The notes beneath the pieces were generated by a model. It worked only from the letters and a program-made list of their open reading frames with translations. It did no database searches and was not told the DNA's origin. Made by a program: the position numbers and the translations under genes. From positions 1-64,000 of the forward strand of contig CALDHM010000001.1 in the NCBI GenBank assembly GCA_937941455.1: DNA of 64,000 nt, written 5' to 3'. Shown here piece after piece: positions 37,930-43,712 of this stretch. Numbering within the stretch: position 1 is the first letter of the stretch; each line of letters starts with the position of its first letter. This stretch comes from an uncultured Pirellulaceae bacterium (GTDB lineage Bacteria > Planctomycetota > Planctomycetia > Pirellulales > Pirellulaceae).

Positions 37930-38183
37930 GGCAGCCCAGGGCCGCAAAATCGAGAGGGTTGTCGATTAGCGGCGGGATCTTGCCATGGGCCGCCGCAACG
38001 ATGACGAGTCCGATCGACCTGCCGCATGACGACCAAGGTTATATTTGCGGGTGATTGGCGGACAACCGGGGTAGTATCCAATGACGGCCTACTCTATCGC
38101 GGGCTCCGCGATCACACCGTCCCGTTCTCCTGCAACGATTCTCCTTATTCACCACGAAATTGACGACGAAACGAGCAAACCCG

Positions 38184-39248
38184 ATGAGTCTTGAAACTCT
38201 GCACCAAGCTTTGCAACGTTTTCCGGATCCGGAGACCGGCATCCCGCTGTCGGTAGGAAAACAGGTCCACGAGGTCCGCTGTGATGACGGTCACGTGTGC
38301 GTCACCGTCGCCTTCAGTTCGTATGTCGCCCCGCTGCGAACTGAGCTGCGTGAGAAAATCGCCGAGTTGGTAAGAACGCATTTGCCCGAGGCGCGGCAGA
38401 TCGATGTGGAGATCGTCAACCATCCTCGGCCGGCACTCCCCAGCGGCCAATTGGGTTTGACCGCCAAAAGCGTCGTTCTCGTCGGATCCGGCAAAGGGGG
38501 CGTCGGGAAAAGTACCGTGGCTCTCAGCCTGGCGCTGGCCCTCAAGCGGGCGGGCTGCGAGGTCGGGTTGCTCGACGCCGACGTCTACGGACCGAGCGTC
38601 CCGCAACTGACGGGCGTTCGCGGGCAGGCGACCAAGGCGGGGGACAAGATCGCGCCCTTTGACTATGACGGTATTCGCCTGATGTCGATCGGCTACATGG
38701 TTCCTCCCGACAAGGCGGTGATCTGGCGCGGGCCGATGCTGCACTCAGCCGTCTCGACATTCCTTCGCGACGTCGCTTGGGGGAATCTGGATTTCTTGAT
38801 CGTCGACATGCCGCCGGGAACCGGGGACATCGCCCTGACGTTGTCGCAGGTCATCCCTGGAGCGTGTGCGGTTGTCGTCTGCACGCCACAAGAGGTGGCG
38901 CTGATCGATGCGGTGAAGGCCGTCGCAATGTTTCAGCAAGTCAAGATTCCCGTCGTGGGCGTTGTCGAAAATATGAGCAGTTTCATTTGCCCCGACACTG
39001 GCAAGCGGTACGACATTTTCGGCAAGGGGGGGGCGAGGCAGTACGCCGAAGAAGCGGGGTTGCCGTTTCTCGGTGAAATCCCCATCAACATCGGAATTCG
39101 CGAGCGGGGGGACGAAGGGAATTCGGCGGCCAATTTTTCCGACCCGACCGTGGCCCCCTACCTGGAAAAAATCGCTTTTCAACTCGTCCGCTATTTGGCC
39201 CAAAAATCGGCTCAATCCCCCATCAAGGCCCAATTGCCCGTGTTGTAG
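38184..39248 (+). CDS. Mrp/NBP35 family P-loop ATPase (iron-sulfur carrier)
   Basis: GSGKGGVGKSTVALSLALALKRAG, LLDADVYGPSVPQLTG, IVDMPPGTGDIALTLSQ, VVENMSSFICPDTGKRYDIFGKGG; N-terminal MIP18/DUF59-like domain. Confidence 0.95.
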   Translation: MSLETLHQALQRFPDPETGIPLSVGKQVHEVRCDDGHVCVTVAFSSYVAPLRTELREKIAELVRTHLPEARQIDVEIVNHPRPALPSGQLGLTAKSVVLVGSGKGGVGKSTVALSLALALKRAGCEVGLLDADVYGPSVPQLTGVRGQATKAGDKIAPFDYDGIRLMSIGYMVPPDKAVIWRGPMLHSAVSTFLRDVAWGNLDFLIVDMPPGTGDIALTLSQVIPGACAVVVCTPQEVALIDAVKAVAMFQQVKIPVVGVVENMSSFICPDTGKRYDIFGKGGARQYAEEAGLPFLGEIPINIGIRERGDEGNSAANFSDPTVAPYLEKIAFQLVRYLAQKSAQSPIKAQLPVL

Positions 39249-39304: not shown

Positions 39305-39352
39305 AGGAAAAAGGCCAGGGGAAAAGGCCAGGGGAAAAGGCCAGGGGGCGTT
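39305..39352. repeat. short tandem repeat (GGAAAAGGCCAGG units)
   Basis: aaaaaggccagggg-aaaaggccagggg-aaaaggccaggggg read directly. Confidence 0.7.
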
Positions 39353-39377: not shown

Positions 39378-39404
39378 AAAAAAATAGGACTGCTAGGCAG
39401 TCCT
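39378..39404 (-). terminator. intrinsic terminator of the KA-rich micro-gene
   Basis: On minus strand: AGGACTGC-CTA-GCAGTCCT followed by ATTTTTTT. Confidence 0.85.
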
Positions 39405-39445
39405 GTCTCGTTGTTTCGATGAGTAGAAAGCGACGTTAGAAGAAA

Positions 39446-39547
39446 CTACTTCTTCTTGGCGGCTTTCTTAGCGGCTTTCTTAGGAGCTGCTGCTTTCTTA
39501 GCTGCCTTCTTAGGAGCTGCTGCTTTCTTAGCTGCTTTCTTGGCCAC
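39446..39547 (-). CDS. 33-aa Lys/Ala/Pro-rich basic microprotein, histone H1-tail-like
   Basis: GTG start: VAKKAAKKAAAPKKAAKKAAAPKKAAKKAAKKK*; GGAGG Shine-Dalgarno (GACGGAGGATTTATC-GTG) at proper spacing and an intrinsic terminator at 39378-39404. Below the length cut-off of the supplied ORF track. Confidence 0.8.
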   Translation of the reverse strand: MAKKAAKKAAAPKKAAKKAAAPKKAAKKAAKKK

Positions 39548-40274
39548 GATAAATCCTCCGTCAAAAAACCTTGGTGAATGCCGGACCGAAATCCATGATT
39601 CACCACCTAAATTACCGAACACGAAACAACACGTGTCGGATGGCTAACCACTCAAGGCATCATCTATTCCGAGACGACGCCAGTGTTTGCTCGATCAAGT
39701 CTGCTGCGTTTGGCCACGGCACACTCGACAACACAAACGAAGAGTGGCTTCCTTCGTTGACCTATTTTTTAAGCGATACCGCGAACGAATTCAATATTGG
39801 TTATCAAAAAAAATCAAAAATCATCACGCCTCGCGCCCTGACCTGCAGGATGGCCACGAGTCTCGCGCATCGCGCGTTGCGATCGTCAGCCAGCGCGGTG
39901 CGCGACCAGCGCAAGGGCTGCTTGATCCACCGCGGCAACACTCGCGAGCAACGATTCACGCAGTGGCACGACAACGTCGTGCTGCGCCGGTCGATGTGGC
40001 CAACCAGCATAAGAGGCAACTCGAGCGACAAGCCAAAAGCTCGAAATTTCTCGGGAAAAATCAAGATTTTCAGCGATTGACCACGGGCATCTCGCACGGC
40101 GAATGCTCGACTTGCAAGATTCATCGACCAACTGATCATGAGGCACTGCATGAGCATCACTCTCGCAGTAATCTAGTTGCTAAAAACACTTCGTCGATGT
40201 GTGTCTTGTCGTAGCATAGGATGACATGTGGATATCTGTTCGGCAACGAATACGACCACAGTTCCCCGCGAAAA

Positions 40275-40302
40275 AAAATTTTGAAAATTTTTCAAAAATT
40301 TT
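40275..40302. repeat. AT-only near-palindrome
   Basis: AAAATTTTGAAAATTTTTCAAAAATTTT inside a GC-rich background. Confidence 0.7.
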
Positions 40303-41092
40303 CGGTTGATGGCCTGATCCATGCGGCAGTCGATGGTGAATTCATCACGCGGTATGCTTGTGTTGATCGCGCGGATGCGTGAGTGAAGTCGTGCGTTGGT
40401 TCGCTTGAGCAAGCCCAACATGGGACGCGTCCGCACATCGTTCCGCATGGACGAACGACGAATGCCAGCCAAGCGATGTCCGTCCCCATCAACAAGGCGA
40501 CCGATGCCTAAAGCGACATGGCAGTCGGCTCGGCCATTTCGCACCCATGCGCATCGGTCGCAGGGCTTGGTCAAGGCCAGATATCGCAAAAAACCGCGGA
40601 AATTCGCGAGAAAACTCGCGGCATACGCTCGGGGAATGCTGATCGTTCCGCCATGCGGTGGCGAGGATCAAGCGTTCGGTGATCCGCGTTGGCGCGAGCC
40701 ATCCGTGGCTCTGTGCGCGATCGTCATTCTGACGCCGAGATTGCCAATGACGCGCAGCGAGAGACGCGAGTTTCTTGCGTGCAGGTCGATGTAGACCACC
40801 AGCGTTCGCGAAAGAATCGTTCCGAGGGCAAGTGCGGCGGACAACCTCCCCCCCGCAGCGGGACGGGTTTCGAAAAATAAACCCCGGGTAATAAGTTTCG
40901 CTGGCGGTCGCAATTAACTGGTGGGTGTTGAGCGACCAACTTTGTCCGCAGTCGATATCGGCGATGGTGACTTACCCGTCATCAGTTCCGGTCCGATCAA
41001 TAAACCAAACTTATTGATTCCCGGCGTTCGGAGCCTCGCTATCGATGTGCATCTTCTACCGATTCTCAAAATGAGACGGTCGCTTGAGGCAC

Positions 41093-41162: not shown

Positions 41163-43712
41163 TCAGTTGCCGGACGGAGCGGCATCGGCGGTTTCCGTCG
41201 ACGGTTGCGCCGCGTCGTCGCTGACCCCTTCGAATTTGAGGTGCTTGAATTTGCCGTCTTCGTCGCGCACCACGTCGACAAGGATTCTGTTTTTGCCCGC
41301 GAAGGAATTCTGCAACAACTCTTCCGAGAGGGGATCTTCGACGTAGTTTTCGAGGGCTCGGCGGAGCGGACGAGCACCGTAGTCGAGGTTTGTTCCCTTT
41401 TTGATGAGGAACTCCTTCGCATCGCTGGTCAACTCCAGAGTGTAACCCCGTTCGGCCAGTCGATCGCGAATCTTTTTCAGTTCCAGATCGATGACCAACT
41501 TGAGGTCCTTCTTTTCCAGATGCCGGAAGATGATTGGTTCCTCCGACAGGCGGTTGAGGAACTCTGGCCGGAAGGCCCGCTGGATTTCGTCGTACACGCG
41601 AGCCTTCATGCTTTCGAACGAGGCATCTTCGCCGGCACCGGGGAGCCCGAAGCTTGATTCATTCTTGATCGCGTGAGCCCCCACGTTGGTGGTCATGATC
41701 AAGATCACGTTGCGGAAGTCGACGTTGCGACCGAAACTGTCGGTCAATCGGCCTTCCTCCATCACCTGGAGCAACATGTTGAAAATATCCGGGTGCGCCT
41801 TCTCAATTTCGTCGAGGAGGACGACGGAGTAGGGTCGGCGGCGGATTTTTTCAGTAAGCTGCCCACCTTCTTCGTAGCCGACATAGCCCGGCGGCGCGCC
41901 GATCAGGCGGCTGAGGTTGTGTTTCTCCATATATTCGCTCATGTCGATGACGACCATTGCGTCGGGGTCACCGAACATGAATTCGGCGAGCGCCTTGGCG
42001 AGCAAGGTCTTACCGACACCGGTTGGTCCGGCGAACATGAAGGAGCCGATTGGGCGTTTGGGATCTTTGAGCCCGCTGCGGCTACGGCGGACCGCTTTGG
42101 AGACCGCTTTGATCGCCGCATCTTGGCTGATGACCGCCTTGTGCAGTTCGTCCTCCATGCGAATCAGACGCATCGAGTCCTCGACCGTCAAGCGAGTCAG
42201 GGGCACGCCGGTCATTTTGGAAATGACCTCAGCAATGACCTCTTCGTCGACGACGCCGTCAGTTTCTTGCGACTTCTCGCGCCATTCTCGCTTGATCTGA
42301 TCTTTCTTCTTGCGAAGTTTGTCCGATTGATCGCGGAGCGCGGCGGCTTTTTCGAAGTCTTGGTTGGCGACCGCGTCTTCTTTTTCCTTGTTCAACCGCT
42401 CGATTTCATCGTCGATTTCTTTGAGGTCGGGCGGCTTGGTCATCGATCGCAGGCGGACCCGCGCCCCAGCCTCGTCGATCACATCGATCGCCTTGTCGGG
42501 GAGGCAGCGGCCGGTGATGTACCGGCTGGACAGATCGACCGCGGCGGCGATGGCATCATCGGTGATTTGCACACGATGATGCTCCTCGTAGCGAGCGCGG
42601 AGCCCGCGGAGGATCGCGACCGTTTCGGAGATGGACGTCGGCTCGACGAGAATTTCTTGGAAGCGTCGGGCCAAGGCACTATCCTTCTCGATGTACTTGC
42701 GGTACTCGTCGAGAGTCGTCGCGCCGATGCATTGAATCTCGCCGCGAGCCAGTGCCGGTTTCAGCACGTTGGCCGCATCGATCGCCCCTTCGGCGCCACC
42801 TGCGCCGACGAGGGTGTGGAGTTCGTCAATGAACAGAATCGTGTTGCGATTCCGTTTGACTTCGTTCATCACGGCCTTGATCCGCTCTTCGAATTGGCCG
42901 CGGTATTTGGTGCCGGCGACCATCATGGCCAGATCGAGGACGACGATCCGTTTGTCGGCGAGAATTTCGGGGACTTCGCCATCGACGACCCGTTGGGCGA
43001 AACCTTCGACGATCGCCGTTTTGCCCACACCCGCCTCGCCCAGAAGTACTGGGTTGTTCTTGGTGCGGCGGCAGAGGACCTGGATCGCCCGTTCGATTTC
43101 GACTTGACGTCCGATCACCGGATCGAGCTTGCCTTGGCGAGCCAATTCGGTGAGGTCACGGCCGAAGCTGTCGAGGGCCGGGGTTTTGGACGAGCGCCCC
43201 TTGCCGGTTTGCGCTTCGCCTCCGCCACCAACACCCTCGCGGCCACCGCGTTCACCACCTTCGCCGCCTTCCAGGCCATTGCCCAGCAGGTTCAAAACTT
43301 CTTCGCGAACGTCTTCGAGTTTCAATCCCAAGTTCATGAGAACTTGCGCGGCGACTCCCTCATGCTCGCGCAGCAAACCGAGCAGCAAGTGTTCGGTGCC
43401 GACGAAATTGTGGTTGAGGTTGCGCGCTTCTTCCATCGAGTACTCGATGACCTTCTTCGCACGCGGTGTCTGCGGGAGCTTGCCGATCGTGATCATCTCC
43501 GGACCACTTTGGACCAGCTTCTCGACTTCGAGCCGAATTTTGCGGAGGTCGACGTCGAGGTTTTTCAAGACGTTGGCGGCGACGCCGGTGCCTTCCTTCA
43601 CCAAGCCCAGCAGCATGTGCTCGGTACCGATGTACTCATGGTTGAAGCGTTGGGCCTCTTGGTTGGCCAACTGCATCACCTTGCGTGCTCGGTCGGTAAA
43701 TCGTTCATACAT
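41163..43712 (-). CDS. clpC: ATP-dependent Clp protease ATP-binding subunit ClpC
   Basis: Double Clp_N, two Walker A ([31 protein letters not shown]), UVR motif ([27 protein letters not shown]), 849 aa. Confidence 0.96.

Follow-up and report, generated by a model that had tools for sequence, protein, structure and literature searches.

The C-terminal tail of eukaryotic histone H1 is dominated by lysine, alanine and proline and is expected to be disordered, properties that recur in the lysine- and alanine-rich (K/A-rich) microproteins described here. Among bacterial nucleoid proteins, HupS and mycobacterial HupB are HU proteins with lysine-rich tails, basic repeats being carried in these cases on a nucleoid protein. 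Size variation through repeat number is known in the histone H1-like proteins Hc2 and BpH1 (PMC2848022), and Hc2 has been reported as an RNA-binding translation repressor (PMC2848022). KPAA-repeat peptides from the H1-like protein AlgP bind DNA in vitro, AlgP itself is located on polyphosphate granules, and the same study noted that trypsin leads to an underestimate of its candidates (PMC9239181). In planctomycetes, condensed nucleoids have been reported and searches for histone homologues have failed (PMC3440768). For the condensation of planctomycete nucleoids, a stand-alone H1-tail gene conserved over much of the class would offer a small candidate that is easily deleted or synthesised.

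The window analysed here is a 64,000-nucleotide stretch of DNA from an uncultured Pirellulaceae bacterium. Its minus strand holds a 33-codon K/A-rich open reading frame that starts with GTG (39547-39545), stops with TAG (39448-39446) and encodes VAKKAAKKAAAPKKAAKKAAAPKKAAKKAAKKK. A first-pass annotation had read a GGAGG Shine-Dalgarno sequence, a GTG start, this peptide and an intrinsic terminator at the locus, and each of these elements is present and its coordinates are all correct. The features of the locus are:

39446..39547, minus strand: K/A-rich microprotein ORF, 33 aa, GTG start, TAG stop; homologous stretches in G001 and G003
39555..39559, minus strand: Shine-Dalgarno GGAGG, 7-nt spacer before the GTG; GGAG(G) in relatives
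39563..39568, minus strand: six consecutive U, flanked by the leader hairpin and the Shine-Dalgarno sequence
39572..39605, minus strand: leader hairpin, 8-bp stem TGGTGAAT/ATTCACCA, a per-sequence stem with 8 pairs kept in three congeners
39615..39639, minus strand: second leader hairpin, CCGACACG..CGTGTTCGG, predicted; mostly conserved among congeners
39378..39404, minus strand: intrinsic terminator with a stem of 8 bp and a T7 tract; the same in G001 and G003 save one G001 loop base
38160..39248, plus strand: Mrp/NUBPL-type Fe-S P-loop NTPase (mrp), convergent neighbour; PF10609 E 9e-94, PF01883; start codon uncertain
41163..43712, minus strand: clpC, upstream neighbour on the same strand, about 1.6 kb upstream

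A longer reading of 58 aa from an upstream in-frame GTG is possible, but the Shine-Dalgarno sequence and the conservation are found only at the inner GTG. At 102 nt, the gene exceeds the 90-nt minimum applied by common gene finders. A search for sigma-70-like promoters in the window gave none. An A/T-rich palindromic stretch (AAAAAAAATTTTGAAAATTTTTCAAAAATTTT, window 40268-40305) lies in the 1.6 kb that separate clpC from the microprotein gene. By all sequence signs the microprotein gene is monocistronic and forms its own transcription unit.

Comparison with genomes of the same genus demonstrated how the locus varies. A DNA search matched nearly the entire 391-base query to G001 at 83% identity. 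The G001 ORF encodes 38 aa and differs from that of the window by two in-frame indels of 6 and 9 nt, the flanking indels outside the ORF include lengths of 1 and 2 nt, and all three substitutions between the G000 and G001 ORFs lie at third codon positions. In G003 the ORF has 32 aa and its AAKK/APAKK pattern is rearranged; the Shine-Dalgarno sequence, GTG and terminator core are as in the window. In both genomes mrp is convergent downstream. G004, of the same genus and 92% complete, has mrp and no K/A-rich ORF beside it; in G002 (77% complete) no mrp was found.

The wider family was assembled mainly from DNA. Searches with the 33-aa protein and with a 12-member HMM, which failed to recover the known positive G044, proved insensitive; their negatives therefore carry no weight, and the family was traced through DNA similarity, patterns and synteny. 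Filtering the results of a DNA search of 60 relatives and of pattern searches left 94 distinct free-standing ORFs, 19-119 aa long, with ORF, Shine-Dalgarno sequence, start and stop recurring in 94 distinct relatives. Because several searches had specified GTG, the start codon was retested through the mrp loci, an approach blind to the start codon. The mrp gene was located in 57 of the 60 relatives and adjoins a K/A-rich ORF in 32 of these 57; the start codon of the 30 complete mrp-linked ORFs is GTG in 29 and ATG in one. GGAG(G) precedes all 30, an SD-like motif having been required by the start filter. About a dozen more of the 60 genomes carry the K/A gene elsewhere than beside mrp. Among cultured planctomycetes, Rhodopirellula europaea, Thalassoglobus neptunius and strain K23_9 have the gene. 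In an RTG pattern search, GTG was the start of every short K/A-only ORF among the first 30 loci, and ordinary proteins starting MAKK mostly used ATG. An SD-GTG pattern scan across 85,462 species returned at least 120 places, assigned by count of record titles. Among the matches listed, at least 65 were planctomycete places, at least 63 of them K/A ORFs (four being truncated at the edge of the locus), and the 55 non-planctomycete places included two K/A ORFs of at least 19 aa plus five of 11-13 aa. In 13 genomes from three families of the same class (f22, f23 and f24), no K/A ORF with the SD-RTG pattern was seen among the 30 loci read, and its absence there is likely rather than proven.

The commonest downstream neighbour across the family is a convergent mrp (26 members in the cluster). 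Upstream, Pirellulales members have an M50-like peptidase (23) and an SGNH-like hydrolase (13), and another group has a sugar-phosphate isomerase-like gene (16); these names come from sequence reading, the Pfam check having covered mrp only. The first-pass annotation had suggested looking for synteny between mrp and clpC. The mrp side of this arrangement is conserved; clpC recurs on the G003 contig and is replaced by other upstream genes in the wider family. Linkage to mrp is evidence of orthology independent of the low-complexity sequence, and the recurrence of the M50-like and SGNH-like genes upstream adds to it. That annotation had also made its proposal depend on conservation of ORF, Shine-Dalgarno sequence and terminator; all are kept in relatives, but the mrp locus of G004 is without the gene. 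What had been described as a single 33-aa case is now one member of a family spread through much of the class. Judged by this conservation, the K/A microprotein is a genuine stand-alone gene family, conserved in most of the planctomycete relatives examined. A literature search with subscription papers mostly outside its scope found no description of a K/A microprotein family, which is apparently new to the literature.

Additional K/A-rich genes were encountered during these searches. One genome (G054; L054 / L064) carries three K/A genes that start with GTG, among them a 76-aa one whose C-terminus is not repetitive, indicating that paralogues exist. At nine loci (L072, L080, L083-L087, L089 and L032) ATG-start proteins combine a K/A-rich H1-like N-terminal tail with a conserved C-terminal domain (RLKAYWGVFNQSLKRVELFEYNERKQADKKA..KSPHFVQPVKE); it is possible that these are relatives of the tail-only protein.

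Over 11 close pairs, differences at codon positions 1, 2 and 3 number 18, 13 and 80 (80 of 111 at the third position); aligning by residues favours such an outcome, although the pairs are close. All four alanine codons are in use (GCA 364, GCC 457, GCG 140, GCT 505), and repeat units are gained in multiples of three nucleotides. The third-position bias shows that selection acts on the peptide. An accidentally open, slippage-prone AAG/GCN tract devoid of function would account for the free change of repeat number; we regard this as very improbable, the conserved GTG, Shine-Dalgarno sequence and 3' hairpin, the mrp linkage across families and the codon-position bias all speaking against it, and slippage artefact was rejected as contradicted by conservation. 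A gene on the opposite strand receives still less credence. A 63-aa TTG-start ORF does lie at 39456-39647 on the plus strand, where the repeat would encode a hydrophobic AAFLAAFLGAAAF peptide, but third-position changes in the K/A frame would change antisense residues, and this candidate was discarded with Shine-Dalgarno sequence, GTG, stop and terminator all conserved on the minus strand.

The 3' end of the gene is marked on the minus strand by the hairpin AGGACTGCCTAGCAGTCCT (39404-39386), after which come one A and seven T (39385-39378). A terminator scan of the 2.4-kb region gave 6 sites against 2.7 +/- 1.5 in shuffles, which taken by itself is weak evidence, so that conservation had to decide. 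The terminator core and T-tract are identical in the congeners G001 and G003 except for one loop base in G001. Across the family, 28 of 94 members have a strict terminator within 120 nt of the stop, against 0.6 expected from base shuffling. Relative to dinucleotide shuffles, the sequence beyond the stop averages a fold z of -3.79 and folds at z < -2 in 74 of 91 members; the member sequences, here as in the leader, are related and hence not independent trials. Hairpins follow the ORF in nearly all members, and in relatives the 3' hairpin is usually strong. Tandem GGCCAGGGGAAAA-like repeats were observed between the mrp stop and the terminator (window 39305-39348).

The leader upstream of the GTG is also structured. 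For the stem at 39605-39572, 8 of 8 pairs are kept in three species of the window genus, with three pairs altered on both sides, and slid versions of the stem pair at only 33-46%; the shuffle control gave 32/500, and with three sequences this is suggestive only. A U- or pyrimidine-rich stretch occupies the position of the U-run in many relatives, and an invariant GCCCGG core is common to many Planctomycetales leaders. For the family, mean fold z against dinucleotide shuffles came to -1.42 over the leader (-100..-12), to -1.29 over -188..-100 and to -0.27 farther upstream. MAFFT and RNAalifold applied to mixed leaders left the outer stems unaligned, and reliance was placed on the three congeners, per-sequence stems and fold z-scores. 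In Rfam neither the window leader nor eight relatives gave a match above the gathering score; anti-hemB and L20 leader matches near the locus were attributed to chance because they fell below gathering and away from the leader. About 190 nt upstream of the GTG lies a further hairpin (AACGAAGG..CTTCGTT, window 39736-39758), conserved in part among the congeners; it may indicate the region of the promoter or of the transcript start. In other planctomycete lineages, near-perfect sigma-70 promoters (TTGACA-16/17-TATAAT) precede the K/A ORFs at L160, L186 and L212, suggesting strong expression of these copies. Overall, the leader is read as structured and perhaps regulatory, and comparison shows that the gene codes for protein and is conserved together with its start, structured leader and 3' hairpin.

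This architecture raises the question of a leader peptide or dual-function RNA, in which the Lys/Ala-rich ORF would sense translation or belong to a regulatory RNA, with an inert peptide as its product. A structured leader, a very strong 3' hairpin and the suitability of lysine-rich leader peptides for attenuators are all compatible with such a role. We nevertheless judge it improbable: the terminator faces a convergent gene rather than an operon, no co-directional gene of the kind an attenuator would control follows it in the window or in the mrp-linked relatives (where convergent mrp is found instead), lengths range from 19 to 119 aa, and the third-position bias shows selection on the peptide.

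Outside the planctomycetes, a shorter gene was recognised in 13 of 95 Methylomirabilota genomes, consisting of GGAGGTGA-GTG and the 10-13 codons that come after it (VAKKKATKKKKK and its variants). These loci (L330-L332 and L338-L347) encode stand-alone VAKKKA(T/A)KKKKK peptides of 10-13 aa behind the Shine-Dalgarno sequence GGGAGGTGA and a GTG. In nearly all, a sigma-70-type promoter (TTGACA-17/18-TAGCAT) lies 37-56 nt upstream; strong downstream hairpins are present, mostly GGCCCTG..CAGGGCC; and among nine 12-codon copies 108 of 122 pairwise differences are at third positions. By sequence reading, a divergent radical-SAM-like gene often lies upstream and NrdR-like and GlyA-like genes face the copies; the location of the nrdR-like gene on the other strand in several of them is a further argument against a leader peptide. 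A search of Nitrospirota for the 12-aa form found it in the starting genome only (1/148). Homology between the Methylomirabilota and planctomycete genes is not decidable from such short low-complexity sequence. The Methylomirabilota version would rank among the smallest conserved protein genes, and at 10-13 aa it is very short for a compaction protein.

The 94 members consist of 53% Lys, 30% Ala, 5.5% Thr, 4% Val, 4% Pro and 2% Arg, and only one of them contains an acidic residue. The resemblance to H1 tails that had been claimed for the window peptide is right in composition and extends to the family (K 53%, A 30%, P/T/V 14%). With the look of an H1 tail that lacks its histone, the family is a candidate for condensing planctomycete chromosomes. 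From composition, the peptide would most likely act as an H1-tail-like polycation in DNA compaction or in the binding of other polyanions. We lean slightly towards the reading that the peptide is a free-standing, probably disordered K/A/P polycation, equivalent to the H1 C-terminal tail, which would help in nucleoid compaction or bridging. On this model, the peptide would bind DNA by charge neutralisation and turn helical once bound; length and affinity would depend on how many KKAA/APKK units are present, a number free to vary; and the leader, U-run, strong Shine-Dalgarno sequence and GTG start would set or regulate peptide synthesis. If DNA compaction is correct, a bare tail suffices.

Composition alone is without power to separate DNA from rRNA, mRNA or polyphosphate as the partner. 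It is possible, if rather unlikely in our estimation, that the peptide is real and its main partner is ribosomes/rRNA, mRNA or polyphosphate, for which it would act as a polyamine-like counter-ion or granule organiser. The RNA binding and translational repression reported for Hc2 (PMC2848022) and the granule location of H1-like AlgP (PMC9239181) are precedents, and the smallest members, at 19-30 aa in Planctomycetota and 10-13 aa in Methylomirabilota, have a size more suited to a counter-ion than to an architectural protein. Against this, the KPAA-repeat peptides bind DNA in vitro (PMC9239181), and none of the neighbouring genes points to a function, to ribosomes or to polyphosphate. The nucleoid-compacting reading, which we prefer, has limits of its own. 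Two HU genes are present in the host genome as well. No K/A ORF was seen at the G004 mrp locus or, by pattern, in f22-f24; the peptide is therefore not a universal planctomycete condenser, and nucleoids in those genomes need another agent. A bolder proposal, which we advance tentatively and with more doubt than conviction, is that undescribed tail-only H1-like microproteins, of 19-119 aa in Planctomycetota and 10-13 aa in Methylomirabilota, are strongly expressed behind a conserved structured leader, serve as a main chromosome-condensing polycation of Pirellulales and Planctomycetales, and have gone unseen because they are short, low-complexity and fragmented by trypsin. The family exposes a blind spot in which low-complexity filters, length limits and tryptic proteomics hide such proteins.

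Matches of longer members to the Hc2 and Burkholderia H1-like families were weak and all below the curated cut-offs. Against PF07382 (Hc2; cut-off 40 bits) the 33-aa member gave no match and longer members gave 11.1-29.6 bits or no match; against NF038053 (Burkholderia H1-like; cut-off 80 bits) three longer members scored 13.1-26.5 and the 33-aa protein nothing. The ORFs are repeat only, with no Pfam match to Hc1 (HctA) and no Hc1 N-terminal dimerisation domain. Likeness to Hc2 (HctB) lies in the Lys/Ala/Pro/Thr/Val repeats, evenly spaced charge and in-frame gain and loss of repeats (PMC2848022), the last seen here in the 6- and 9-nt indels between G000 and G001 and the 19-119 aa range; Hc2 differs in its 165-237 aa, its flanking regions and the Arg in its pentamers, whereas the K/A family is 19-119 aa, repeat only and built on Lys with little Arg. 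Bordetella BpH1 and the Burkholderia H1-like proteins share Lys-rich repeats of variable length, but BpH1 is larger (182-206 aa; PMC2848022). HU proteins with basic tails differ in that the two HU genes of the host genome are separate genes. The composition is that of an H1 tail, Lys/Ala/Pro-rich and acid-free, but the globular domain of eukaryotic H1 is absent, and homology to the H1 tail is not demonstrable because the sequence is low-complexity. The KPAA tails of AlgP and PhaF are H1-like repeat tails as well; those are joined to another domain (in AlgP a helical domain of 124 aa), whereas the K/A family consists of the tail without any other domain.
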